From: a virus
Strand: one strand, 5' to 3'
IMG/VR virus record: IMGVR_UViG_3300021136_000003
Span: 1-64,000 of that record
Length of the DNA stretch: 64,000 bases
The stretch's first letter is position 1, and each line of letters opens with the position of its first letter. Below are positions 48,839-62,502 of this stretch, piece after piece. Made by a program: the position numbers and the translations under genes. A model generated the notes under the pieces. It was not told the origin of the DNA. It worked only from the letters and a program-made list of their open reading frames with translations, and did not search any database.

Positions 48839-49564
48839 ATGACTATTTATTATCTCTATGTTAAGACCCATAAAATAACAGGTCTTAAATATCTCGGCTA
48901 CACAGGAAAAGCAGACCCATATAAATACCTCGGTTCCGGTGAGTATTGGAAAACACATCTCAAAAAACATGGAAAAGAAATCACGACGGAAATATTACAT
49001 GAATGCCAATCTAAAACAGAAATCAAAGATCGCGGGTTGTATTACAGCGAATTATGGAATGTAGTGGATGCCTGTGATGTCCTGGGCAAAAAGACTTGGG
49101 CCAACCTAAAACCTGAAGCCGGGGAAGGTGGTGATTGTGGTCCTAAAGGACGAGCGGAAATTTCACGCAAAGGTAAAGGACGGACACATTCTGATCTAAC
49201 TAAGCGTAAAATGAGCTATTCACATACTGGTACCATAATGTCTGGCATTACCAAGGAAAAGATAGGACTTAAAAACGCCGGCAAGAAACACACGGATGCC
49301 TTCTGTGATTTACATCGAGGGCCCAATAACAAGTTTTTTGGTACAGGCCCGTTTAACGGAAAAACTCACTCCATCGAGACTAAGGAGAAGATTAGTGCCA
49401 AAAATACAGGGAGAAAGCACACCGAGGAGGCCCGTCTAAACATAAGCAAAAAGATGGCCGGAATAAAAATGGCTGAAGTGACTTGTCCCCATTGCTCCAA
49501 AGTAGGAGCAGGAGGGGCAATGAAACAATGGCACTTTGATAAGTGTAAGTTTAACCGAAGGTGA
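48839..49564 (+). CDS. GIY-YIG homing endonuclease with NUMOD3-like repeats
   Basis: A 241-residue protein. IYYLYVKTHKITGLKYLGYT is the GIY-YIG pair, KYLGSGEYWKTHLKKHG follows. There are three NUMOD3-like repeats (SDLTKRKMSYSH, SIETKEKISAKN, TEEARLNISKKM). It ends in CPHCSK...HFDKC. It lies between the clamp and the polymerase C-terminal gene and shares its leader and C-terminus with three other homing genes. The stop region overlaps the polymerase gene by 14 nt. Confidence 0.87.
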   Translation: MTIYYLYVKTHKITGLKYLGYTGKADPYKYLGSGEYWKTHLKKHGKEITTEILHECQSKTEIKDRGLYYSELWNVVDACDVLGKKTWANLKPEAGEGGDCGPKGRAEISRKGKGRTHSDLTKRKMSYSHTGTIMSGITKEKIGLKNAGKKHTDAFCDLHRGPNNKFFGTGPFNGKTHSIETKEKISAKNTGRKHTEEARLNISKKMAGIKMAEVTCPHCSKVGAGGAMKQWHFDKCKFNRR

Positions 49565-50798
49565 ATAGAGAATCAACTGTAGAGTTGGTGTCTGTATTGG
49601 AACGTAAGTCCCAGTTCATAACACCGAGTAAGTTGTCGATCTTTTCATCAACTAACGTCTTTTCCATTAATAGATTGTCGAACGGAAGTTCTTTGAACCA
49701 TTCTGGCAATCTCATTTCATCAACTGGGTATGCAATGCTGGTGTAACCCAATGGGTTGTTTTTCAGCTTACATACCACAATCTTCATGCCATCCATGATC
49801 TTCATTGAGTAGTTGTCGTTATGGACTCGACGCAGCCAGTTCCAGTTGATAGCAGCCCGAACGTGACCAGGCATGTTTGCCCTGCCTGTTCGACTTTTCT
49901 CTTCCGCTTCACCATACATCGTCAGCTTGTTAACTGACTTAGGCGAACCCTTTGTCCATCCGTCTTGGTTGCCCAATTCAGTTTTGAACGTCTTGATAAC
50001 CTCAATGATATCCTGACGATCTTTACCATCAAGGACCATCTCCAACACTCGCATCAGGAACTCTTGAACATACTTAGGTGTGTCAGCGCGTTTCAGATCA
50101 AGACCCATAGCCTTGATTTGACCAATGCCGAATCTGACACCGTTCTTCTTAGCCTTGTCCATGTCATACTGATCCAGACGCTTGCCTTCTTTGTCGTAGA
50201 TGTTCAGAGCATACCGCTTCTTAGTGATAAACAACGACCGATCAGCAACCAGTTCTCGACCTGCTTTGATGATTTCGCCGTTCTTGCGTGGAGCATGAAA
50301 CGACTTCTCCATAAAGCCAGCGAACCCGTCATTGATCTGATCAGCGATATTGTCGTACAACTGAATAGCAACGTCTTTGCTCCAAGTCATTGTGCTAGCA
50401 GCAACTTCATCCTTCATCAGAGGCCATGCAGAGAAATAACAAGAGTCAGTGTCACCGTATACGATTGCTTGCCCGGTGTAGTCATACTCTCCGGTGACGA
50501 TTTCATTGATGTGTGCGCTCATGTGCTTCACAATCTGCCTGCCTGATAGAGTAACCGATTGACCGATACGCTTATCGTAGAAACGACAGTGTTCATTCAA
50601 CAGGGCACCGTAAGCTGAGTTCAACAAAATCTTTCTGACCAGTTGTCGCTTGTCCCAATAATCTGTAAATTCCTTTATTTTCTCCTGTGAAGCGACTATC
50701 TTCCCATTTTTAATCACAAGGTTATGCAACTTCATATATTGTCGCAATTCCGATACATTTCTGGTTTTTACCAAGTGTTTAATATGTTCTACATCCAT
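49551..50798 (-). CDS. 43: DNA polymerase gp43, C-terminal part
   Basis: A 415-residue fragment of a family B polymerase. KILLNSAYGALLNEH (about 56-70) is motif B with K56, N60, Y63 and G64. YGDTDSCYFS (about 112-121) is motif C with the two catalytic aspartates. The C-terminus ends SLFTFG, like the clamp-binding tail SLDFLFG of T4 gp43. It has no exonuclease domain or motif A; these are encoded at 51526-53217. The start MDVEHIKH has no good ribosome site. Confidence 0.9.
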   Translation of the reverse strand: MDVEHIKHLVKTRNVSELRQYMKLHNLVIKNGKIVASQEKIKEFTDYWDKRQLVRKILLNSAYGALLNEHCRFYDKRIGQSVTLSGRQIVKHMSAHINEIVTGEYDYTGQAIVYGDTDSCYFSAWPLMKDEVAASTMTWSKDVAIQLYDNIADQINDGFAGFMEKSFHAPRKNGEIIKAGRELVADRSLFITKKRYALNIYDKEGKRLDQYDMDKAKKNGVRFGIGQIKAMGLDLKRADTPKYVQEFLMRVLEMVLDGKDRQDIIEVIKTFKTELGNQDGWTKGSPKSVNKLTMYGEAEEKSRTGRANMPGHVRAAINWNWLRRVHNDNYSMKIMDGMKIVVCKLKNNPLGYTSIAYPVDEMRLPEWFKELPFDNLLMEKTLVDEKIDNLLGVMNWDLRSNTDTNSTVDSLFTFG

Positions 50799-50821
50799 TT
50801 TTGCATAATCTTTCTGTCAAT

Positions 50822-50829
50822 GATAAATA
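50822..50829 (+). promoter_or_regulatory. T4-type late promoter motif for homing gene
   Basis: GATAAATA on the plus strand, then TATTTATAGGAG and the ATG at 50848. Confidence 0.6.
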
Positions 50830-50847
50830 GTATTTATAGGAGATAAT

Positions 50848-51546
50848 ATGGGGTTAAATAAAAAATACAATGAAAGCACTTACTCTGCTGCCGTAAAAAA
50901 ACTCGGTTACACCGCGTTGGAACCTTATAATGGTATCACCTTTAAAATAAATCATATGTGTCATACCTGTAACAATATTTGGAATACGCAACCCAGGCAA
51001 GTCTTGAATGGAATAGGTTGTCGTCATTGTTTCCAGTTGAGAGTTCGCAAACCGATTGACTTGGTAAAGACGAGTTTATTGCCCGGTCAATGGGAAATAG
51101 TTGACGATAACGAATACAAAAACTCATATTTACCGCTGCATTTTAAACACCATTGTGGTCATATAGTAAAGTCTTCCCTCGAGGTAATATTACGCACTGA
51201 CGAACACCGCAAACGTTGTCCGGTTTGCACCCCACATAAAATAAGAGAAGGAACGTGGTCAAAACCAGTCGAACATGATGGCCGTAAATATTCATCAACC
51301 TTGGAGGCAACGTGCTGTGAATATCTTATTGGTAAGTTTGGATTATCGGATATCATATTACAAAAAGAATATTCGGTTGATGATAGAAGAACAGCGGATG
51401 CATATATTAAAAGTTTGGATACTTATGTAGAAGTTAGCAGTATAGGAAAAGAATGGTATTTAGAAAGGATTTACAGAAAACGGGATCTTGTAAAAAACTT
51501 CATCTTCGTGTCATCCCTTTCTCAACTACGGACTATGATTAAGTAA
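50848..51546 (+). CDS. putative homing endonuclease, VSR/PD-(D/E)xK-like
   Basis: A 232-residue protein. The N-terminal half has zinc-knuckle pairs (CHTCNNIW...GCRHC and CGH...CPVC). The C-terminal third has EYSVDDRRTADAYIKSLDTYVEVSS. Its D...E-V-S pattern resembles the core of very-short-patch-repair/PD-(D/E)xK nucleases, where Lys is replaced by Ser. AGGAG lies upstream. The gene occupies the interval that splits the DNA polymerase and lies on the opposite strand. The end overlaps the N-terminal polymerase gene by 21 nt. Confidence 0.7.
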   Translation: MGLNKKYNESTYSAAVKKLGYTALEPYNGITFKINHMCHTCNNIWNTQPRQVLNGIGCRHCFQLRVRKPIDLVKTSLLPGQWEIVDDNEYKNSYLPLHFKHHCGHIVKSSLEVILRTDEHRKRCPVCTPHKIREGTWSKPVEHDGRKYSSTLEATCCEYLIGKFGLSDIILQKEYSVDDRRTADAYIKSLDTYVEVSSIGKEWYLERIYRKRDLVKNFIFVSSLSQLRTMIK

Positions 51547-53217
51547 AGCTACCATTTCATCGTCTACATCTATCCCCGCGGCAAGTTCAGAACAGAGTTT
51601 CATTTTCCGTTGTTGAGCCTTACGATCACTGTACCACTTACCAAGTAGTCCCGGGATGATACCTTGATTAGCATACGAGAAGATCGTGCCGTTCGCACTG
51701 ATCATCCATGGATTGTGACTGTCAAAGATCATCTTCCAGATTTCAGCAGCACTTTTCTCCTCAGTGCGTCCATCTTCGTAGTCAATCGTCAGCAGAGTGC
51801 CGCGTTCTTGGTTCATGATCGAGGTGTATTCTAACGACCCGAACAAACCTTCCCAGAGGACACTTCCCGTCACATCATCGTCGCCATCTTTGTGGCGTTT
51901 CTTCTCACGTGCCAGTCTCATGCCCTTTTCGTGCATGAACTGATCTGTCAGTGTTTGTCTGACCTGAGCAATGATGGTTTCTGGCGCCATGTTAAGCGCC
52001 CGGATCGTTGAGGGATAGAGCGAGTTAATGTCAACTGCTCCGACCCATTCGTGAATTCCCTTTTTGGGAGTAGCAACATAGGCACCTGCCGCTTGTTGTT
52101 GGATATCATCATTTTCAACCCTTCGTTTTTTATCAGGAACTACCAGACCATGATCATGAGCTTCGTTCATGATCGCCATTTCAACCATTGCCACTGTACC
52201 CATGACAACCGGAATCAACACGGTGTTTTCGTGTGCCAGTTGATTTGCCAGTTCAAGAAAGTGAACTTTAGCATGGATCTTATATACCAACTTCGTATCT
52301 TGTCTGTTGTATTCAATGAACTTTTTGAAGTCTTTGTTATACAACTGATCCAGAGTACCCTCGTATGAAGTCTTGTTTTCGTGAACTTCTAACTCGCCAA
52401 TAGCATCTAGTTTGTAGCTGTGGCGACTCTCGTAGTTGTACTTTTTGTAGAGTTGAAGATAGTCAAGATGAATACGACCGATCAAGTCGTAAGTTGTTTC
52501 TTCTTTGCCGAAGCGTTCGTATGTGCGAGCCTTAGGTAGCTGACCTAGTAAACAGAACTTTCGTGTGTCGTTCTTGCTCATAACTCGGGTGACACGATTA
52601 ACCATGTAGGGTATGTCGTATCCTTCAGAGTTCCAACCAGTTAACACATCGGCATCGTCAATCAACTGAAAGAACACATCGAACATGTCCTTCTCACTGG
52701 TGAACAGCATGGTGTCCTCGAACGAATCGCAGATTTCTTGTGCTGTCTCCGGCGTCATGTGCTTAGGAGCAATGACAAGAGTGACAAGACGATCAAGCCA
52801 GTCAAGATACATTGAGATAGCAGTGATCTTGTTCATCGCTTCTGATGCAGGGGAGAAGCCTTTGTCAGGATCGAAGTCAGTTTCAATGTCGAAGAAGCAA
52901 GTGTGAAGTTTGGGAGCATCAATGTTGCGATAGTTCTCACTAAGGCATCTGCCCACAACGCCAATATCACTCTCAAACATTTTCTTGCCGGAGTTTATTC
53001 GTCGTTCTTTTTCAAACTCTGTTCGCTTTCGGCAGGAGAATCGACTGACCGGGAGTGCGGTGCCCGCACTCAGCCCGCGATACTTGCCTTTGGGATCCGC
53101 GTAGTAAAATGTATAGTTTGCCTGATACTCTTTATACTGACGCTTACCGTCCTTGTCCCGTTCTACAACAACGATCTGCTCAGAGTCTTTATTGTGGATT
53201 GCGTCAACAAATGACAT
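51526..53217 (-). CDS. 43: DNA polymerase gp43, N-terminal part
   Basis: A 563-residue fragment of a T4-type polymerase. FFDIETDFD (about 108-116) is exonuclease motif I, GWNSEGYDIPYM is Exo II and YNRQDTKL is Exo III. DINSLYPS is polymerase motif A. The chain stops after the helix KWYSDRKAQQRKMKL (fingers) and LLNHSP. Motifs B and C are on the downstream gene. Together the two parts give about 978 residues versus 898 in T4 gp43. They must associate in trans or be spliced. Confidence 0.92.
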   Translation of the reverse strand: MSFVDAIHNKDSEQIVVVERDKDGKRQYKEYQANYTFYYADPKGKYRGLSAGTALPVSRFSCRKRTEFEKERRINSGKKMFESDIGVVGRCLSENYRNIDAPKLHTCFFDIETDFDPDKGFSPASEAMNKITAISMYLDWLDRLVTLVIAPKHMTPETAQEICDSFEDTMLFTSEKDMFDVFFQLIDDADVLTGWNSEGYDIPYMVNRVTRVMSKNDTRKFCLLGQLPKARTYERFGKEETTYDLIGRIHLDYLQLYKKYNYESRHSYKLDAIGELEVHENKTSYEGTLDQLYNKDFKKFIEYNRQDTKLVYKIHAKVHFLELANQLAHENTVLIPVVMGTVAMVEMAIMNEAHDHGLVVPDKKRRVENDDIQQQAAGAYVATPKKGIHEWVGAVDINSLYPSTIRALNMAPETIIAQVRQTLTDQFMHEKGMRLAREKKRHKDGDDDVTGSVLWEGLFGSLEYTSIMNQERGTLLTIDYEDGRTEEKSAAEIWKMIFDSHNPWMISANGTIFSYANQGIIPGLLGKWYSDRKAQQRKMKLCSELAAGIDVDDEMVALLNHSP

Positions 53218-53603: not shown

Positions 53604-54251
53604 ATGACTATTTATTCATACAAAAATCCACCCGATGGATTTTATACATACGCATATTTGCGTGATGATAACACCCCGTATTACATTGGTAAGGGACAGG
53701 ACAAGCGAGCATGGAAACACGCAAAAACGGAAGTATTCAGAACACCCAAAGATCATTCCAGAATAATTATTTTAGAGGCCAACTTATCAGAGGTCGGCGC
53801 GCTTGCTTTAGAAAGATTTTATATTCGTTGGTACGGTCGCAAAAATGAAAACACCGGTATACTTCGCAATAAAACAGCGGGCGGTGAGGGAATTTCTGGT
53901 TTTAAACATTCCCAAGACACTAAGGATAAGATCAGAGAAAAACGCCTCGGCTCCATTCCATCATCAGAGGCGCGTCTTAAACAAAGTCGGGCATTGAAGG
54001 GTGTAAAGAGGGGACCACATTCCTTGGAACGCAGAGCGGCTATTAGCAAAAGTAGAAAGGGATATACATATTCTACAGATCGTAATGCTAAGGTAGCTGC
54101 CGCCCATACAGGAAAGAAGCGAGTTGAGCATGGAATAAATATGACCGGGGCTAATAATCCGTCATTTGGTAAACACTGGTTTAATAACGGGGAAGTTTCT
54201 ATTTTAACCTTTGATTGCCCCGAGGGGTTTGCACCTGGAATGCTGAGATAA
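53604..54251 (+). CDS. GIY-YIG homing endonuclease with NUMOD3-like repeats
   Basis: A 215-residue protein. FYTYAYLRDDNTPYYIGKGQ is the GIY-YIG pair. SQDTKDKIREKRLGS and SLERRAAISKSR are NUMOD3-like repeats, and the end (GKHWFNNGEVS) differs from the zinc-finger type. It lies between the DsbA-like gene and the tagged-protein cassette on the opposite strand. Confidence 0.87.
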   Translation: MTIYSYKNPPDGFYTYAYLRDDNTPYYIGKGQDKRAWKHAKTEVFRTPKDHSRIIILEANLSEVGALALERFYIRWYGRKNENTGILRNKTAGGEGISGFKHSQDTKDKIREKRLGSIPSSEARLKQSRALKGVKRGPHSLERRAAISKSRKGYTYSTDRNAKVAAAHTGKKRVEHGINMTGANNPSFGKHWFNNGEVSILTFDCPEGFAPGMLR

Positions 54252-54253
54252 CT

Positions 54254-54331
54254 TTATTTTAGCTTAGGTTTACCGAATACAGTTTCGCGGATAGTCTGTC
54301 CGGTCTGTAGTTTGCGCTCGTATAATCTCAT
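54254..54331 (-). CDS. 25-residue reading frame, possibly truncated gene
   Basis: A short frame (MRLYERKLQTGQTIRETVFG) whose ATG overlaps the stop of the upstream gene (ATGA). It ends 2 nt after the homing gene. It may be the start of a gene truncated when that element inserted, or a real micro-protein. Confidence 0.35.
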   Translation of the reverse strand: MRLYERKLQTGQTIRETVFGKPKLK

Positions 54332-55179
54332 TTTCCTGTCCAGACGGCGTATAGTCCGGAGTTATATTCACCACTATATACAGTGCTTAACTTAGTTTTT
54401 ACAGCGGCTTCTAATTCTTTCCCGGTGTCATTGGGCTGCACATCAAATGCAAAGTATAAGGAACCATACCCGCCCTTACCAATATACTGTCCGCCTAATT
54501 GTCCCATGATGATGTCAATCGTCTGATCAGCCTTTTTATTACGTTTTTCATCATACTGTTTATCGCCTCTCCGGGCGTAGGGATCTATTTTTATGGTAGT
54601 TAAATTATCATCATGGACAGACACATACCCTTTCATATCCACGCCCGGGATTCCTGATATGCTAACCCAGTTCTTGCGGCCGCCAGGTGTTTGACTTGTC
54701 CCGGCTAGTAATGGTAACTTCAATATAGTCAGCACAATGCCGTATAATGCTTTGGCCAGACCTATGCCACGATAGTCCTCGTCAACTGTGATTGTTCCAA
54801 CTTTAACAGCATTCTTCAGGGGAAAAGATTTTGCCTTATCCACAGTAAGTTCACCGATTAATTGACCCGGTGCTTTTAGTTTTTGTTGTTCTCGTTCCCA
54901 GTCGCGTACTCTACCATGGAATCGACGGCGTTGAATAACTGGCTTTGATTCTGCACCTCTTCGTTTAGCCTGAATAAAGTCTTCTCCGTTCGGATCCCAA
55001 ATTCTAATAGCGGTGCTTCCCCAGTTACCACTCCCTATACTGTACAAAAGACCGCTGCCACCTGGTAAGGCAGATACTTTCTTGCCGGAGTCTGTGCCAC
55101 CTAAATAGCCCTTACCACCTTCGTAATCGTCAGGTCGTAGTCGTTCAATCCCCTCATTGATAAATTCATTTGCTCTCAT
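54328..55179 (-). CDS. tagged GNAT-like acetyltransferase, candidate head-packaged protein
   Basis: A 283-residue protein. The N-terminus MRANEFINEG fits the pattern of T4 capsid-targeting peptides, with a predicted cut after INE. Residues about 150-190 (VGTITVDEDYRGIGLAKALY) form a GNAT acetyl-CoA loop. The rest is basic, with a Gly-rich section (GGQYIGKGGYGSLYFA). It overlaps the metallopeptidase gene upstream by 4 nt and has a CCGGAG ribosome site. The acceptor is unknown. Confidence 0.7.
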   Translation of the reverse strand: MRANEFINEGIERLRPDDYEGGKGYLGGTDSGKKVSALPGGSGLLYSIGSGNWGSTAIRIWDPNGEDFIQAKRRGAESKPVIQRRRFHGRVRDWEREQQKLKAPGQLIGELTVDKAKSFPLKNAVKVGTITVDEDYRGIGLAKALYGIVLTILKLPLLAGTSQTPGGRKNWVSISGIPGVDMKGYVSVHDDNLTTIKIDPYARRGDKQYDEKRNKKADQTIDIIMGQLGGQYIGKGGYGSLYFAFDVQPNDTGKELEAAVKTKLSTVYSGEYNSGLYAVWTGK

Positions 55180-55751
55180 TGGAATATCTCCGGATGTTCC
55201 TTGCCGTATATCTTGATATACTTTCCGGCCATGGCATCAGCCAGTACTTCGATGGGGCTGCCGGGATAACTGTCGCCGTCTTTGACCATGCCCATCTGAT
55301 ATTGTCTGGTATGGGTGAGTTCGTGGAAAACAGTACGGAGAATGTCAATAAGGTTTCTGTTCCCGACATAAATCCAGATCGTGTTGGCAGCAGGAGTGTT
55401 CAATCCAGTGTGGTGACCTTCTCTGGCTGCGTCTGAGTCTTTGCTTAGAGTGATCTTGGGATATGGTTGTTGAATATGCAGCACTTCTATAGCCCACTTG
55501 ATGAAGTCTCTGGTTTGTTCGTCTGAATTATCATCACCTTCTTCGTGTAGTTTGTCTTTGATCAGATCATGTGGCGACTTAAGGTGCTTTCGTTTGAACA
55601 TATCATGTAGTGCATCGTCTGTAAGATTATGTCTACGGGCAATTTTGTGCATAAGATTGTCAAGGGCACTGTGACCGTGAGTAAGGTGGCTTGGTAGTTG
55701 ACGCTCTAGGTCATTTAAAGCTGATTCTGTGATAAATTGATTGGCGCGCAT
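55176..55751 (-). CDS. tagged zinc metallopeptidase-like protein, candidate head-packaged protein
   Basis: A 191-residue protein. The tag is MRANQFITES. FHELTHTRQYQ contains HExxH, and about 20 residues later GSPIEVLADAMAG provides the glutamate ligand, as in gluzincin-type peptidases. A long His-rich helical stretch separates tag and catalytic part. The start lies 4 nt after a CATAAATA late motif. It is probably a protease delivered with or acting on the head. Confidence 0.72.
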   Translation of the reverse strand: MRANQFITESALNDLERQLPSHLTHGHSALDNLMHKIARRHNLTDDALHDMFKRKHLKSPHDLIKDKLHEEGDDNSDEQTRDFIKWAIEVLHIQQPYPKITLSKDSDAAREGHHTGLNTPAANTIWIYVGNRNLIDILRTVFHELTHTRQYQMGMVKDGDSYPGSPIEVLADAMAGKYIKIYGKEHPEIFQ

Positions 55752-55755
55752 AGTG

Positions 55756-55763
55756 TATTTATG
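55756..55763 (-). promoter_or_regulatory. late promoter motif (CATAAATA) near a start codon
   Basis: CATAAATA on the minus strand, then CACT and the ATG at 55751. It is a one-base variant of the GATAAATA box. Confidence 0.45.
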
Positions 55764-55872
55764 CTAGGGAGAATAAAGTGTCGCTCTTTAAATAAACCCG
55801 GGCACGACTCCATTGTTATTAGGGTGAGCGACGACCCCACACACGCAACTAAGTTGCGGTCCTAAGGTGTGT
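55764..55872. other. non-coding interval with inverted repeats
   Basis: No reading frame is evident. CGCAAC-TAA-GTTGCG (plus strand, about 55845-55859) is a perfect 6-bp hairpin. It is enclosed by ACACAC and GTGTGT on its two sides, giving a nested stem. The element lies directly after the stop of the 521-residue gene and could be a terminator-like or processed RNA structure. Confidence 0.45.
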
Positions 55873-57438
55873 TCAGGTAAAATACGGATCAACGATAACA
55901 ATGGTGCCGTCTCGCCGCATCATTGCATTCTCGGTATGAAGGTCCCAACCGAGTCCAGATTTGAGTCCAGCATGATACAACCTGGACATTGTCAAATATA
56001 ATATTCCGAATTGTTTGCTGACTACCGGGTCAGCGAATCTCTCAGCAATCAACTGAGGCATCTCCTGCCAACTAGGAGGCCAAGTACCCGGCTTCTTCAA
56101 CATGCTGACTACATTGCTCCAGGGCGCTCTGATCTTTGCTAGATCACTCAGCAACCACACTATGCGTTGCTCAAAGCTTTTGTCTGGAATCGGCAACAGT
56201 CGTTCCATTGCGATTTGTCTATACGGCGTCCCGTTAATTTCAAACACAGTAGTTCCTTGCCCACCAATATCAATAAATCGCGGCAGATTAGGTAACTCCG
56301 GATGCTTTTTACAGAATTCATAAAAGGTCATAAAGCCTTTTTCAGCATTGGTGACATCACTTGGCAAAGTGCGTCTGGGCATCAGAATCTTGATGACATG
56401 ATTATCATCCTTCGCCCACACTGTGGCGTCAGCACCGTGACCTAACTTCTTGTATCCGAGCCCTTCTAACTTGGAGAAGATTTGTCTGCTGTTGGGAGTA
56501 TCACGCTCGTATTCATCTAATTTATCCGGCATAAGTTTAACCACTCGAGGCTTGAACAACTGTATGTCACCTTTATTTGTCCGCAAGGTTGGCTGGTTAT
56601 GTTTGTCCTTACCGAAGCCTTTAATCTCAGCAGGACTGTTCTTAAATTTTCCCTTCAAAATTTTGTCACCGGTGTGTAGTGTTGGCGGACTATAGGAATC
56701 CTCAGCGACGAGATGTTTATCATCACCTGACTTTTGCCATGCGTCCCACATTCCTCTACCCGCTGTAGTTCGTTGAAAACTAGGTCTTATATCATTGCCC
56801 AACATCTTCGCATACGCATACATAGTGGATGCTACACCTTTATTTCTATATTTTGGATCAACTTCAGTGCCGCCACTTTCCATGTATCCATCGTTCGTAT
56901 CATCTTCCCAGTCAAATATTTGAAACAATATTTGACCTATTTCTTTATTACCATCATATGCTTTAATGTTCAACAATGGTTCATCCATAAATATCTCAAC
57001 TGACGCTTTGTAAGTATAATCACCAATCTCTTGAGTATGATTGAATTTTTTATTAAGAATATCAGGATTTATTGTTTCGTCTAACTTCTTTGACGCATAC
57101 GCCACGGGAACTGTCTTCATTCCGGCGAGCCAGAACGCAACCATACGATGGCGACCTTCCATGACGAATAGATCAGGATCGCCCTGCTCCACATACATTG
57201 GCATCGGAGTGGCACCTTGTTTCAACAGACGAAGAATCTTGTTTGTTCGCCGTTCGTCTTTGGGAAACTCATTGAAGGTTCCGTGCATCTCTTTGATCTG
57301 ACCCAGGAACTTGTCAATAGGTTCATGCTTGATATGAACTTCAATCTGATCAGGTTCGGCGTGTAGCCATTGAGCCACGCTGACCAGATCCTCTCTTGTA
57401 GGATCTATTGTTTCGTATAGAAATATATGGGCTCTCAT
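55873..57438 (-). CDS. tagged ParB-like/GNAT-like/kinase-like multidomain protein
   Basis: A 521-residue protein with tag MRAHIFLYET. Residues about 35-115 end in FVMEGRHRMVAFWLAGMKTV, a ParB/sulfiredoxin-like motif. Residues about 190-225 (KYRNKGVASTMYAYAKML) resemble a GNAT loop. Residues about 325-521 form a kinase-like domain. It has LGHGADATVWAKDDNHVIKIL as the Gly loop and lysine, GWDLHTENAMM as the catalytic loop and IVDPYF in place of DFG. It is probably injected to modify host proteins, but activity is untested. Confidence 0.7.
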   Translation of the reverse strand: MRAHIFLYETIDPTREDLVSVAQWLHAEPDQIEVHIKHEPIDKFLGQIKEMHGTFNEFPKDERRTNKILRLLKQGATPMPMYVEQGDPDLFVMEGRHRMVAFWLAGMKTVPVAYASKKLDETINPDILNKKFNHTQEIGDYTYKASVEIFMDEPLLNIKAYDGNKEIGQILFQIFDWEDDTNDGYMESGGTEVDPKYRNKGVASTMYAYAKMLGNDIRPSFQRTTAGRGMWDAWQKSGDDKHLVAEDSYSPPTLHTGDKILKGKFKNSPAEIKGFGKDKHNQPTLRTNKGDIQLFKPRVVKLMPDKLDEYERDTPNSRQIFSKLEGLGYKKLGHGADATVWAKDDNHVIKILMPRRTLPSDVTNAEKGFMTFYEFCKKHPELPNLPRFIDIGGQGTTVFEINGTPYRQIAMERLLPIPDKSFEQRIVWLLSDLAKIRAPWSNVVSMLKKPGTWPPSWQEMPQLIAERFADPVVSKQFGILYLTMSRLYHAGLKSGLGWDLHTENAMMRRDGTIVIVDPYFT

Positions 57439-57821
57439 TGTAGTTCTGATAGATCAATGTATTTAATCGAAGTGCCTTTATATGCTGCTGCCAACGCACG
57501 ATGATTGCCGTCGATGATCCTATGCTCAGATATCACAATAACTTTGTCAGCTAATGTTGGATCATTCATGTAGCGTTCAAGAATTTCTTTCTGATCCGGG
57601 GCCATCATGTCAACAATTTCATCAAGGTGCTCGACCCGGTATTGACCAAGCAACATGATTTCTATTTTGTATCGGGGCATCGTATGAATCATCAACGGCG
57701 TGTCAAGATCCATTGTTCCTATCTCATCCCATAGAGATTCATCGCGCCCCGGAAGATCACTGTCGTATAAATCATTCAGCGTTGTTTGCTGACTCTCGGA
57801 TAGAAACTCTGTGGCTCTCAT
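57435..57821 (-). CDS. tagged ParB-like protein
   Basis: A 128-residue protein with tag MRATEFLSES. The C-terminal part IIDGNHRALAAAYKGTSIKY is the DGNHR-type motif of ParB/sulfiredoxin-fold nucleases and NTPases. It overlaps the previous gene by 4 nt. The role is unknown; the same fold is repeated in the neighbouring 521- and 700-residue proteins. Confidence 0.72.
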   Translation of the reverse strand: MRATEFLSESQQTTLNDLYDSDLPGRDESLWDEIGTMDLDTPLMIHTMPRYKIEIMLLGQYRVEHLDEIVDMMAPDQKEILERYMNDPTLADKVIVISEHRIIDGNHRALAAAYKGTSIKYIDLSELQ

Positions 57822-57822
57822 A

Positions 57823-59646
57823 TTAGTCTGCCGGTTGAACGATGAGTTCCCGTCGTTGCTCCGGTGTTAGTCCCATTTGATTTACTATCTCAATCGCTCG
57901 GTCATATGCGCCGGCGTTTACGGCGCCCGGTGGCGCCATAAATGGTTCGCCAATGTGTTCACCGGTATTACGATTAACAAGCGCCCACGGGACCATACCA
58001 GGCGTAGTGCCGGGTTGAGTTGTTTCAGGTTCCCAATCTTGATTAGGAGTCAGATAACCGGAGCGTGTTCTGATGCTAGCAGCCGGCGCTGCTACTTCGG
58101 GGCCCTGTTTCTTAATATTTCTTTGTAGCTGTACCTGCTTGATGAAGCTTTTTAGGGCGGCTGCTGGCATATCACCGGCGACATACTTGGCGAAGATACC
58201 AATCGGATCGCCTTCACCCTTTGGGGCCAGGATCTTGTACAGCTTCTTCAGATATTCTTTGCGATACTTCTGTGGATCACTTGCGGCGTCAAGCGCAACT
58301 ACAGTTCTCAACAACGTATTTTCAATCTTGTCGAAGTTATCATCTAACCAATCGCCGCCGGGCGATCTGAACTCAATGTAGTCACCTTTGTTGTTGATGC
58401 TGATGTATTTGTCTGTGTTGCCACTGTGAATTGCTTTTGACGCAAACTTGTCAAGACCTGAACGCATCTTTTCCAGAACTGCTTTGGCATCTGCATCACG
58501 TGTCATTGCGTATTGCTTTACTTTGGCCAGTGCTGACTTACAGAATGTGTTTGCTTCACGCCCGAATTGTTCAAGTATGTAATCATCTCCGAGCAACAGA
58601 GCAAGTTTAACATAGTCTCTGTCGGCACCTTGAGGCACGCTGACATTGATGTGAAGACCGGTTGATTCGTTTGTGTAGCAACCGGTCTCATCTGCCCATG
58701 CTTTAACTTTCTTCAGATCAGCGATGATATCAGGGATAGACATCGGCGGACTGATGAATTCCAGACCACCATCTTCAGGTTCATTCGGTGAGTCAAGACT
58801 TCCGTCCGGTTCAAGTGAGTATGCAGTTGGAGAACGACCGGCACGATGATATCCACCGGTTATGACTTTCTTACCCATTGCTTTGCTGAACATCTCACCG
58901 ACTGAATCCATGTCAAGCTCACCGGCTTCAGGCGCGGTGCGATACGGCCATGTAATAGTGTAGTTATTTTCCACATCACTCATGCGACGGAGGTTGTTAT
59001 CACGTAGGAAGTCACGTTGATCAGGACATTCCCAATCATTTTCCCATTCTTCACGGGCCTTGTCATATAACCTGCCTTGAGAGTCCCATTCTTCTTCTAC
59101 TTTTTCATCAAATGCTTCTTCAGCAACGGTAACGGCTCGGACCCAGTTATGATACGCCGGCGTATCAGGTAACTCTTTACTTGTCTGTATGCCTTTTGCA
59201 GAGTCTCCACCGTCTTTGGCTTCGTCTTTTTCTTCTGCGGTGAATCCAAGATCATTCATTGCTTGATCGATTGCTTCGTCGGCGTCCCAATCATTTTCTT
59301 CCATGTATGTTTTCAGCAGTTCTTTACCTTCTTGGTGCCACTGTTCAGATTGTTGCTCCATGCCCCATTCAGAGTAAGCATCTTCAAGTTCGTCACGCAG
59401 CATTGCTAAATCTCTACGATCATTGTAGCCATCGCCGCCGTTAAAGAAGCGGATGATATAGTCTATATCATTGGCCTGCTCATCCATACTATAGTCAGGC
59501 ACAGATTCGTAGTCATTGTCTGGCCCACCTGCGTTCGGGACATACATCTCAAACTCCATGCCTGCCATGGCGTTGATCTTCTCGGCGTCCCTTCTCAGGG
59601 AGTTCGGATTCATTGCTATTTCGTTTAAAAACTCTAATGCTCTCAT
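57823..59646 (-). CDS. tagged amidoligase-like protein
   Basis: A 607-residue protein with tag MRALEFLNEI. GMEFEMYVPNAGG (about 29-41) and GLEFISPPMSIPDIIADLKK with STGLHINVSVP are the hallmarks of amidoligase/glutamine-synthetase-like enzymes. A long acidic coiled region lies between them. Such enzymes form amide bonds between amino groups and carboxylates. The start lies near an ACTAAATA motif (59652-59659). It is the largest enzyme of the tagged cassette. Confidence 0.7.
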   Translation of the reverse strand: MRALEFLNEIAMNPNSLRRDAEKINAMAGMEFEMYVPNAGGPDNDYESVPDYSMDEQANDIDYIIRFFNGGDGYNDRRDLAMLRDELEDAYSEWGMEQQSEQWHQEGKELLKTYMEENDWDADEAIDQAMNDLGFTAEEKDEAKDGGDSAKGIQTSKELPDTPAYHNWVRAVTVAEEAFDEKVEEEWDSQGRLYDKAREEWENDWECPDQRDFLRDNNLRRMSDVENNYTITWPYRTAPEAGELDMDSVGEMFSKAMGKKVITGGYHRAGRSPTAYSLEPDGSLDSPNEPEDGGLEFISPPMSIPDIIADLKKVKAWADETGCYTNESTGLHINVSVPQGADRDYVKLALLLGDDYILEQFGREANTFCKSALAKVKQYAMTRDADAKAVLEKMRSGLDKFASKAIHSGNTDKYISINNKGDYIEFRSPGGDWLDDNFDKIENTLLRTVVALDAASDPQKYRKEYLKKLYKILAPKGEGDPIGIFAKYVAGDMPAAALKSFIKQVQLQRNIKKQGPEVAAPAASIRTRSGYLTPNQDWEPETTQPGTTPGMVPWALVNRNTGEHIGEPFMAPPGAVNAGAYDRAIEIVNQMGLTPEQRRELIVQPAD

Positions 59647-59650
59647 ACGA

Positions 59651-61753
59651 TTATTTAGTCAGTGGTTTATTTGTCCCAGCTAACCTGCTAATCGCACGTT
59701 TCATACCAGAATTACGATCTTTCTTACCTGTGAGTGTATCAGTCATTGCTTTGCCAAGATAACTCTTTACTGCGGGATCACTGATTTCATCCATCTCTTG
59801 ATTGAACTTGCCTTCGAAGTCCTCCTGTTCATCTGGGCCAGGTGCTTCTGGTGTTGAAGGGACAAGACTATCATAGTCTTTCATTGTCAGAGTTCTGCCA
59901 CGTTGGCAACCTGCTACTAGCTTTTCAGCAAGATCATGTAGAGCCATATCGTCAGCCGCATCTTCCTTGGCAAACTCAAGCAGTCTGATCAGCAATGGAA
60001 CGTCAAGCTTCACCACATCAGCGGGGTTCATCGCCTGCTCTGGTTTAGATAGCAGTCCTGATTTAGGGCGACGACGGTCAGCAGATAGAACTACATCATC
60101 TTCTGTGATTTCACCTTCAGCAACGTTAGATGCTCCGGTTGCCGCCGGGTGCAGGTTATTAATGATACGTTTAAGGCCGGCTATTTCTTTCATCAGTTTG
60201 GCAATCTCTGCGTCGTGGCGCTTATCGTTCTTTTCAGTAATGTCTAGTCCTCGCTGCATCCACTTGTTCATGGCTTCATCAGGGCTTAGAGTAGCACCGT
60301 AGTGTCGCTGCGCCCACTCAGATTTGCGTCTTAATTCCGGGTCATTAGATTGTGCCACAGAAGGATTAGCACTAACATCTACGTGCTTGTTCTTATCAGG
60401 GCCCACCATGTTTATCGGGCCAGACTTCTTACCTGCTTGAGGTTGTGCTGCAACAGCCTGTCCTGCTGGTAGTGTATTTGCTTCCGCCACACCTTGCCTA
60501 GATTTAACGTGTCTATATCCAGTTTTATAATCTTCTGCATCCTGTTCGCTGTTGTGGATATTGTTATATGACTTTTTTCTGTGGGCATCTAATCTGCCTT
60601 GCTCATATGGGGTCGGGGTGCTACCAGAATGTTTTGTTTTGCGTGGTGCTGAATGGTCGTTAAATTTTGGAGATGTAGGATCCTTGTTCAACAAATCAGA
60701 TATGGAGCCTTCCGCCACACCTTGCTCTTTGTCGGCTGCGCCAGTATCTTTAGTAGTATGTCTCGTAGAGAAATACTTTTCAGTTTTTCCTAACTGTTTT
60801 GGTTTAGCATTTTGTTTTTGCCATTCTTTTTTATCGTCTGCTTCCGCCACACCTTGCTGACCTTTAATGCCAACATAGGCTTTAATAGTAGAGATCCCTA
60901 ATGCTTTTGCTACATTGGCTCTGTGATAGCCATCTAATATATTACCATCACTACCAACTACTATAGGGGGAGCCTTGCTAAAGTCCATCTTTTTGTATTG
61001 CTCTACTTTTGTTCTATCTAATCCTGACAATTCAGTTCTGATGGAATTTAGTGGGATATTTTTTAGCACAAACTTGCTGTTCGTATTAGTAAGATGATTT
61101 AGATAATCGGGGTGTAGATTCTCATCGTGGTGCTGTCTTAGATACGCAATCATATCTTCTGTAGACATATCATTAGAGAAGCCTTCCGCCACCTTCTTAT
61201 TCTTGTTATCAAGCATACCACGCTTGTTGGCGGTTGCCCAGGCGATATTTTCTGCTTCTTTCGAGGACTTGCCAAGTTTCTTCTCGCTTGATTTGACATG
61301 ACCGACCATGCGATCTACCTTGGCGCCTTCTTCGACTGACTCATACTGGTATGTACCAAACGCATTAGCATAATTGCGGCCATCTTCTGTGTCGGTATGC
61401 TCCTTATCACCGGTACCGTTGCAAGTTGGGCATATAACTTTAGTGGCACCTTTCTTATTGTCTGGGTATAGTTTGCCACCGAGTTTATACTGCACCTTGC
61501 GACCATGACAAGCAGTGCAGTTTGTATTCTGGTGTTTGATAGTTTGACCGGGCATGTGATCTACATCATGCGGGAAACCCTCGCCTTCGTGTAGGCTGTT
61601 AGCATACTTCGCTGAAGTTTTGATACCTTTGAGTAGATTGCTACCTTTAAGTTTCTTCTCCGGAGTGCGCTTTTGAACGGTTTCAAATGGTTGAGCGAAT
61701 GTTGCTACAGCGCCTGCAGTTGTTGAACATTCTTCGAGGTGTTTGATTTGCAT
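59651..61753 (-). CDS. modular 700-residue protein with repeated GVAE sites
   Basis: A 700-residue protein starting MQIKHLEECS, a tag-like end. VAEG/VAEA motifs recur about every 60-200 residues (NKKVAEGF, QGVAEADD, QGVAEGSI, QGVAEANT, SNVAEGEI). Between them lie unlike modules: two DnaJ-like CxxCxG sites (CTACHG and CPTCNGTG), a ParB-like ILDGYHRANVAKALG, and helical parts. At DNA level CTTCCGCCACACCTTGC repeats three times. This looks like a head-internal protein built from cassettes, perhaps cut at each VAE. Confidence 0.65.
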   Translation of the reverse strand: MQIKHLEECSTTAGAVATFAQPFETVQKRTPEKKLKGSNLLKGIKTSAKYANSLHEGEGFPHDVDHMPGQTIKHQNTNCTACHGRKVQYKLGGKLYPDNKKGATKVICPTCNGTGDKEHTDTEDGRNYANAFGTYQYESVEEGAKVDRMVGHVKSSEKKLGKSSKEAENIAWATANKRGMLDNKNKKVAEGFSNDMSTEDMIAYLRQHHDENLHPDYLNHLTNTNSKFVLKNIPLNSIRTELSGLDRTKVEQYKKMDFSKAPPIVVGSDGNILDGYHRANVAKALGISTIKAYVGIKGQQGVAEADDKKEWQKQNAKPKQLGKTEKYFSTRHTTKDTGAADKEQGVAEGSISDLLNKDPTSPKFNDHSAPRKTKHSGSTPTPYEQGRLDAHRKKSYNNIHNSEQDAEDYKTGYRHVKSRQGVAEANTLPAGQAVAAQPQAGKKSGPINMVGPDKNKHVDVSANPSVAQSNDPELRRKSEWAQRHYGATLSPDEAMNKWMQRGLDITEKNDKRHDAEIAKLMKEIAGLKRIINNLHPAATGASNVAEGEITEDDVVLSADRRRPKSGLLSKPEQAMNPADVVKLDVPLLIRLLEFAKEDAADDMALHDLAEKLVAGCQRGRTLTMKDYDSLVPSTPEAPGPDEQEDFEGKFNQEMDEISDPAVKSYLGKAMTDTLTGKKDRNSGMKRAISRLAGTNKPLTK
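60481..60497. repeat. direct repeat in the modular gene (copy 1)
   Basis: CTTCCGCCACACCTTGC, which on the minus strand encodes QGVAE. Identical copies lie at 60709-60725 and 60841-60857, with a shorter copy at 61183-61195. Confidence 0.85.
60709..60725. repeat. direct repeat in the modular gene (copy 2)
   Basis: Identical 17-nt unit CTTCCGCCACACCTTGC at a module boundary of the 700-residue protein. Confidence 0.85.
60841..60857. repeat. direct repeat in the modular gene (copy 3)
   Basis: Identical 17-nt unit CTTCCGCCACACCTTGC; spacing to copy 2 is 132 nt, an in-frame module of 44 residues. Confidence 0.85.
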
Positions 61754-61830: not shown

Positions 61831-62502
61831 TTATGCTATCGTCCAGCCTTTGTGTATTCGTCTTTTATTACGGACAACTGAATTTAAATTTGGCTGACAT
61901 AGATCATATTTCCTAATTAGGTCGTATTGAGTTAACGTTTCTATAATCCCTGTAGTGTGGATGAAGGTGTAAATTGTATGATCGTATTTGTAACTATTTT
62001 TGCCACTCAACTTTTCTTTAACTTCGGGTCTATTTTGTACTTCTTTTTGAAGTACGCTATTCCGAGTGCGATAATCTATGGATTGGTGGGCATCTATTTG
62101 CTTTTTAATATATTCTTTATTTTTCCATAACATTTTGTGGGAATCTGAATTTTTAAGTTTTGTAGCCGGCCTATTTTGAATTTCAGTGGCTAGCGCCGAA
62201 GTCATACCTTCGCCCCCGCCGTTTTCTTTAATCCGGTTAGCCCATATTTTATTGCCGAAATCATCCTGGCCGGTTACTACCCTCCATAGGCTACTATAAT
62301 ACATTCCCCAATAGTACAGTTCCTGTCTGCTCTGACAGGCAATAATAATTTCAGTTGAATGTTCTTTTCCGTGACGCATGAGATGGATCAACCAATCTTT
62401 ACCGGATCCGAGATATTTGTGTGGGTCTTTGCGTTTTGTCTGACAAAGATATTTTAAACCGGTAATATTATGGGTCTTAACCATAAGATAATAAATAGTC
62501 AT
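61831..62502 (-). CDS. GIY-YIG homing endonuclease
   Basis: A 223-residue protein. IYYLMVKTHNITGLKYLCQT is the GIY-YIG region, with Cys replacing Gly in YLG. KYLGSGKDWLIHLMRHG follows, as in the gene at 48839. The end carries a NUMOD1-like segment (TQYDLIRKYDLCQPNLNSVV). It is inserted between the NTase-ART gene and the modular protein on the same strand, with the shared leader upstream. The missing glycine may weaken activity. Confidence 0.8.
   Translation of the reverse strand: MTIYYLMVKTHNITGLKYLCQTKRKDPHKYLGSGKDWLIHLMRHGKEHSTEIIIACQSRQELYYWGMYYSSLWRVVTGQDDFGNKIWANRIKENGGGEGMTSALATEIQNRPATKLKNSDSHKMLWKNKEYIKKQIDAHQSIDYRTRNSVLQKEVQNRPEVKEKLSGKNSYKYDHTIYTFIHTTGIIETLTQYDLIRKYDLCQPNLNSVVRNKRRIHKGWTIA

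Follow-up and report, generated by a model that had tools for sequence, protein, structure and literature searches.

Does a phage protein that joins several enzyme-like domains behind one N-terminal tag act as a single chain, or does it carry separate proteins that are released from one another? The question is raised by a 521-residue protein encoded in the window, by which we mean the whole 64,000-nt stretch of viral DNA that was analysed. An original prediction, made from the sequence, had proposed a kinase-like domain fused to ParB-like and acetyltransferase-like parts behind a head tag, forming a multi-activity effector of host takeover. The window is part of a 121-kb viral record (G000), and an overlapping 142-kb record (G001) comes from the same phage. 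The source is an uncultured, T4-like phage, with homologues of T4-like DNA polymerase, head-closure, tail-sheath-stabiliser and terminase proteins in G000 or G001.

A run of tagged genes

The ORF listing contains the 521-aa ORF, with an ATG start, at 55873-57438 on the minus strand, and three further IMG/VR contigs encode an identical protein (Table 1). Its first nine residues, MRAHIFLYE, correspond to a T4 capsid-targeting sequence, a stretch of about 10 residues at the N-terminus whose last three are L/I-x-E. Starts of the form MRAxxF(L/I)xE were observed in five of the 147 ORFs of the record, against 0.0015 expected by shuffling. All five are consecutive (54328-59646), and the 521-aa ORF is the third gene of this run. 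The genes lie head to tail, with some start and stop codons overlapping, on the strand that carries most tail and structural genes. No T4 late-promoter word was found before the run; the window holds four, compared to 2.5 expected.

The tagged ParB-like neighbour is also found fused in two relatives, L004 and L007. The tagged HELTH zincin-like protein could itself be a cargo-processing enzyme, and the tagged amidoligase-like protein raises a question: is it a peptide- or wall-modifying cargo? Homologues of the latter adjoin the kinase in several relatives, and ORFs of 190-192 aa, the size of the zincin-like protein, recur beside the kinase in many.

Other features of the region were also recorded. 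GIY-YIG/NUMOD3-like homing-endonuclease ORFs are scattered through G000 (53604-54251 (+), 61831-62502 (-), 63832-64497 (-), 77252-77974 (-) and 95046-95609 (-)), one of them adjoining the tagged run. The DNA polymerase at 49551-53217 (-) is possibly split: the ORF at 51526-53217 (-) aligns with no more than the N-terminal portion of the PHROG profile, and it is separated from the next minus-strand ORF by one on the plus strand (50848-51546).

Table 1. Positions in the window of the 521-aa ORF, its parts and its neighbours (a slash marks a predicted cut)
Feature	Position	Strand	Evidence or remark
521-aa ORF	55873..57438	-	ORF listing; 3 identical contigs
Head-targeting tag MRAHIFLYE, residues 1-9; predicted cut after E9 (LYE/T)	57412..57438	-	
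ParB/sulfiredoxin-like module (probable), residues 10-121, motif EGRHRMVAFWLAG	57076..57411	-	weak PHROG matches; sulfiredoxin 6ky4
Joint 1, KLDE/TINPDI, residues 118-121	57076..57087	-	
GNAT module, residues 122-246, R-N-K-G-V-A acetyl-CoA loop	56701..57075	-	PF00583 E=0.0012
Joint 2, LVAE/DSYSPP, residues 243-246	56701..56712	-	inside model stretch with pLDDT below 50
Small beta-rich module, residues 247-309	56512..56700	-	shuffled: L053, L044, L004
Joint 3, KLDE/YERD, residues 306-309, kinase start	56512..56523	-	
gp0.7-like kinase domain, residues 310-521	55876..56511	-	phrog_15752, model, structure matches, hhalign
K350, ATP-binding lysine (VIK)	56389..56391	-	invariant
D499, catalytic-base equivalent in WDLHTEN	55942..55944	-	invariant
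D517, DFG-Asp equivalent in IVDPY	55888..55890	-	invariant
Tagged neighbour MRANEFINE/, GNAT-like, 283 aa	54328..55179	-	phrog_15502 3.5e-8; weak GNAT matches
Tagged neighbour MRANQFITE/, HELTH zincin-like metallopeptidase, 191 aa	55176..55751	-	weak
Tagged neighbour MRATEFLSE/, second ParB-like module (GNHRALAA), 128 aa	57435..57821	-	
Tagged neighbour MRALEFLNE/, amidoligase-like, 607 aa	57823..59646	-	phrog_33777 2.4e-11; phrog_2443 (amidoligase) 0.01
Next gene of run, 700-aa multi-module ORF, VxE linkers, 3 identical QGVAE DNA words	59651..61753	-	
16-17 bp word CAAGGTGTGGCGGAAGG	60481-60496, 60709-60724, 60841-60856	-	also L129; L132-L211

Four modules behind the tag

The motifs from which a kinase had been proposed, namely a Gly-rich loop (residues 333-335), VIK, WDLHTEN and IVDPY, were all present. 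We aligned 38 kinase-domain sequences drawn from the window and other viral contigs; the Gly-loop glycines, K350, D499, H501, N504, R508, D517 and P518 were invariant, and W-D-x-H-T-x-N was kept in every sequence. Because of this invariance, the motifs are not a product of chance. WDLHTEN holds D499 and N504, and the domain has the same D-to-N-to-D spacing (+5, +13) as ordinary protein kinases. The domain matched phrog_15752, the T7-type protein kinase (E=2.8e-5), and taken alone it yielded distant tblastn matches to Autographiviridae protein kinases, down to 2e-5. A profile-profile comparison, one of the checks originally suggested, gave an hhalign probability of 99.1% against a gp0.7 alignment.

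The kinase and N-terminal parts were modelled separately with AlphaFold. The structural matches listed for the kinase model (pLDDT 90.8) were kinase folds only, aligned from the N-lobe to the DFG region; PknB, for example, matched over 3-160, ending near the DFG region. The original prediction was to be given up if no kinase lobe arrangement surrounded the motifs; that arrangement was found, from the N-lobe to the DFG position. Kinase and GNAT homology, taken jointly, are in our view practically certain. The domain proved slightly longer than the C-terminal 200 residues first assigned to it, at about 212. Since the chain ends four residues after D517, there is no activation loop or segment and no helical lower lobe, and the domain is not of the canonical Hanks type, in which both follow the DFG position.

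The domain shares with the T7 gp0.7 family (PHROG 15752) a homologous core with the Gly loop (GxGxxA), the VIK lysine, the hinge, the D-x-H-x-x-N loop and D-P in place of DFG. In contrast to Autographiviridae proteins, in which a C-terminal extension of about 150 residues follows the kinase domain (as in the relative L119), the chain here ends at D-P, and the kinase stands behind a head tag or within a proposed polyprotein of T4-like phages. The extension is the host transcription shutoff region of gp0.7. Because it is absent, we classify the domain, by its sequence, as a relative of the gp0.7 kinase domain and not as gp0.7 itself. Of the two kinds of substrate originally allowed for, a small molecule appears the less likely, since the sequence relatives are phage T7 gp0.7 protein kinases.

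An alternative is that the domain is a pseudokinase, or a nucleotide-binding remnant without phosphotransfer. It has neither activation loop nor lower lobe past the DFG position, and among the 38 aligned sequences no glutamate of the helix-C region is invariant. However, all 38 keep the Lys, the catalytic Asp, the Asn and the DFG-type Asp, and the core is common to related gp0.7 proteins, of which the T7 kinase reportedly phosphorylates proteins of its host. We therefore consider an inactive remnant improbable. Relatives of the kinase occur in at least 94 uncultured-phage contigs. The kinase profile found no relative among about 85,000 genomes of bacteria and archaea; with the full 521-aa protein, a PDB sequence search gave no significant match and tblastn against GenBank phages no match at 1e-3.

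The acetyltransferase-like part was confirmed as a GNAT domain. Besides the Pfam match, it has the RxxGxA acetyl-CoA loop, as RNKGVA within residues 190-210, and most structure matches for the region are GNAT folds (Z up to 8.8). Residues 10-121 are probably ParB/sulfiredoxin-like. They contain the GxHRxxA motif with the ParB/Srx active-site Arg, and sulfiredoxin 6ky4 was among the Foldseek matches to the N-terminal model (prob 1.00, TMt 0.55, E=0.057). Our confidence in this call is moderate because the model there is only fair (pLDDT about 50-75), and the evidence for the ParB-like fold in particular is weaker because PF02195 (ParB_N) had no match across the whole record. A module 53% identical to these residues is present in L038. 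The fusion itself stood, and the number of domains was corrected from three to four, since the GNAT and the kinase are separated by a small beta-rich module. In the model, pLDDT falls below 50 for residues 242-252.

Shuffled modules and the motif at their joints

The same modules also exist as separate tagged genes, and many relatives encode the tag and kinase alone. Among the fused forms, L004 has a different ParB-like module followed by the same GNAT and small modules, with a GH19 glycoside hydrolase (9e-15) replacing the kinase. L007 has the order GNAT, ParB-like, GNAT, kinase; in L053 the small module precedes the GNAT, and L044 is without a GNAT. Two tagged proteins (L004:4832-5710 and L007:4142-4831) have a YHxxSxxxALxIL-like start that recalls ADP-ribosyltransferases; neither has a Pfam match, and both this identity and the resemblance of ART-like modules in relatives to T4 Alt are leads only.

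The tag and all three joints of the 521-aa protein end in hydrophobic-x-E: FLYE/TIDP (9), KLDE/TINP (121), LVAE/DSYS (246) and KLDE/YERD (309). T4 gp21, the prohead protease, cleaves after L/I-X-E (PMC9026906). The motif is short, and of its 11 sites in the protein seven lie inside domains, so that alone it proves nothing. We therefore considered its position. In stand-alone kinases, the tag Glu is mostly 24 residues before the Gly loop. Among 19 non-redundant fused kinases, 13 have hydrophobic-x-E at exactly this tag-end position, and in the remaining six it lies 1 to 6 residues closer to the Gly loop. Likewise, the GNAT module that follows joint 1 begins behind the head tag FINE/ in L007 and behind IDE/, VVE/ or MKE/ elsewhere.

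To extend this to other modules, we took the first post-tag residues of every tagged protein, located their homologues inside other proteins and read the projected joint. Hydrophobic-x-E was present at the exact position in 45 of 75 non-redundant joints, compared to about 2% at other offsets; the other 30 do not have it there. The queries were picked for the tag that they themselves carry, irrespective of the subject, so that this test is not circular.

Proposed processing of the chain, rival readings and known systems

We propose, with a probability of roughly 0.55, that the 521-aa protein is a cassette polyprotein, packaged as head cargo by a T4-like phage and cut in the prohead. The 9-residue tag would target the chain into the prohead core, and prohead protease would then cut after the tag Glu and at the joints at residues 121, 246 and 309. 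This would release a ParB/Srx-like protein, a GNAT acetyltransferase, the small beta-rich module and a minimal protein kinase of the gp0.7 type. Once freed, the modules would remain alongside the DNA inside the head until ejection delivers them to the host cell; there, in the early phase of infection, host proteins would be modified by the kinase and the acetyltransferase. We hold head targeting by the tag to be very likely and modification of host proteins by the cargo enzymes likely; cutting at the joints we favor by a smaller degree. By analogy with T7 gp0.7 and phiKMV Rac, RNA polymerase, RNases and translation factors would be candidate targets.

Five large relatives have a gene for an S77 prohead protease of the T4 type (PF03420, E down to 8e-44); in them, scaffold and capsid genes adjoin the protease gene and the capsid N-termini hold LxE-type sites. 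One of the five, G025, has the 53% identical N-terminal module behind QGVTE/. Pfam, single-protein and five-sequence-profile searches of G000 and G001 revealed neither a prohead protease nor a major capsid gene, and no head-assembly cassette was recognised in these two records. Most other large relatives, including the 354-kb G014, had no detectable S77 protease; these kinase-bearing records may encode a more divergent protease or be incomplete. The PF07230 profile had no match anywhere, controls included.

The original prediction is supported in part, in its head tag and its enzyme modules, and the protein could also be packaged as a single multi-domain effector chain in the style of polyvalent proteins, with only the tag removed and the modules acting together. 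GNAT, ParB-like and kinase polyvalent proteins have been predicted to be injected effectors (PMC5512222), T4 cargo is cut mostly near its termini, Alt being trimmed at both ends (PMC9026906), and the same phage encodes a further ORF with an ART-PolyVal domain. However, the motif is retained precisely at the joints while the adjoining linker sequence varies, and the existence of the modules as separate tagged genes argues that linkage is not needed for function. Because every joint of the 521-aa protein carries the prohead-protease motif of the tag end, we rate a single effector as possible and clearly behind the cassette polyprotein.

The motif at the joints might instead be an uncut fossil of a recent fusion of neighbouring tagged genes. 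The head-to-tail arrangement with overlapping codons would favor such fusions, and L089 and L097 retain nearly the whole tag internally (NEFITE, NEFTTE). In most joints, however, across many divergent fusions, the MRAxxF part is lost and hydrophobic-x-E is kept, which indicates retention of the cleavage part and not general decay; we find a fossil unlikely. T7 gp0.7 is an early protein, and it is conceivable that the 521-aa product is likewise made early in the host cell and not packaged, its N-terminal peptide having another role. The lack of a late-promoter word before the run is consistent with this, but the tag, which unrelated proteins have in common, agrees with T4 capsid-targeting sequences, and the five genes share the strand of most structural genes. 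We give this explanation little credence.

In its workings, the proposed polyprotein resembles the delivery of T4 internal head proteins, joined to the concept of polyvalent proteins (PMC5512222). As in T4 IPI, IPII, IPIII and Alt, unrelated cargo follows a short N-terminal peptide ending in L/I-x-E, and of IPIII the first 10 residues were the portion needed to act as a capsid-targeting sequence (PMC9026906). Unlike the T4 proteins, the chain here has several enzymes and a cleavage motif at each joint, and cargo modules are shuffled among proteins. Like polyvalent proteins, which are multi-domain injected effectors with GNAT, ParB-like, kinase, ART and metallopeptidase modules (PMC5512222), the 521-aa protein combines at least two effector-type domains, GNAT and kinase, with a probable ParB-like one in a single phage-encoded chain. 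Iyer et al. 2017 already likened polyvalent proteins to viral polyproteins whose units are released by embedded metallopeptidases (PMC5512222); in contrast, the 521-aa ORF has no embedded peptidase, and release would fall to the prohead protease. Its kinase is assigned to the gp0.7 type; the polyvalent kinases are described as having an insert between the catalytic His and Asp and special Glu and Gln residues (PMC5512222). phiKMV Rac, likened here by its description, is also a phage GNAT and candidate host-protein modifier; the portion of the source that we draw on has it acting on host RNA polymerase and does not describe it as head cargo (PMC7552054).

What sets the protein apart is the likely processing by an external head-assembly protease, a gp0.7-type kinase as proposed virion cargo and modules whose joints conserve the cleavage motif. 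In the literature searched, mostly open-access papers, we found no description of cargo polyproteins cut by a prohead protease. To our knowledge, no T4 cargo protein is cut into several active enzymes. If the proposal is correct, the T4 prohead protease would process an arsenal of injected polyproteins and not be a mere trimmer, which would explain how one targeting tag can serve many enzymes. With a gp0.7-type kinase among the virion cargo, host modification could start at ejection, before early expression. The joints can also serve to locate unknown phage effector modules, and to mark their limits, from sequence alone.

A second kind of joint is suggested outside the 521-aa ORF. The QGVAE linkers in the 700-aa ORF and in many relatives are coded by one DNA word, CAAGGTGTGGCGGAAG. 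At the loci selected by kinase, 28 of 36 QGVAE copies have the identical 15 bases. Codon bias was rejected as the cause, since WDLHT is coded in 29 ways in 61 copies. A search with the word found 80 further IMG/VR loci, where 103 of 103 copies read QGVAEG in the frame of a long, multi-module ORF. Of the two preceding bases, the first is A in 84% and the second G in 66%, and the following base is C in 81%; conservation drops just outside the word, with unrelated sequence on both sides. Exact 20-mers of the word occurred only three times in a bacterial genome collection, and the literature search found no paper containing the string QGVAEG. Compared to its homologue in L004, the 700-aa ORF has a common head and tail and unrelated middles containing QGVAE words, and in L038 a degenerate copy (QGVTE) precedes the homologue of the N-terminal module.

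These observations suggest that the word is a recombination joint for cassettes that also encodes a cleavage site. More tentatively, T4-like phages may keep a shuffled library of protease-released head cargo, partly joined via about 20 bp, AG-CAAGGTGTGGCGGAAGG-C, encoding QGVAEG. If so, the DNA sequence that joins the cassettes would bring its own cleavage site.

Three further ORFs were recorded. The ORF with the ART-PolyVal domain (4e-5) is an 805-aa multi-domain ORF (L028:2507-4924 (-), equal to G000 65507-67924) with a QGVTE linker and cytidylyltransferase-like, HD_4 (RelA/SpoT-like) and other domains. In L031, a phage ORF (5674-6552) reads like an outer-membrane porin with a signal peptide (MKKIVIAAALAAASIAASAQVTVYG). 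In L209, the QGVAEG word also occurs within a 661-aa ORF whose start resembles L032:4230-6092, a putative portal-like ORF.
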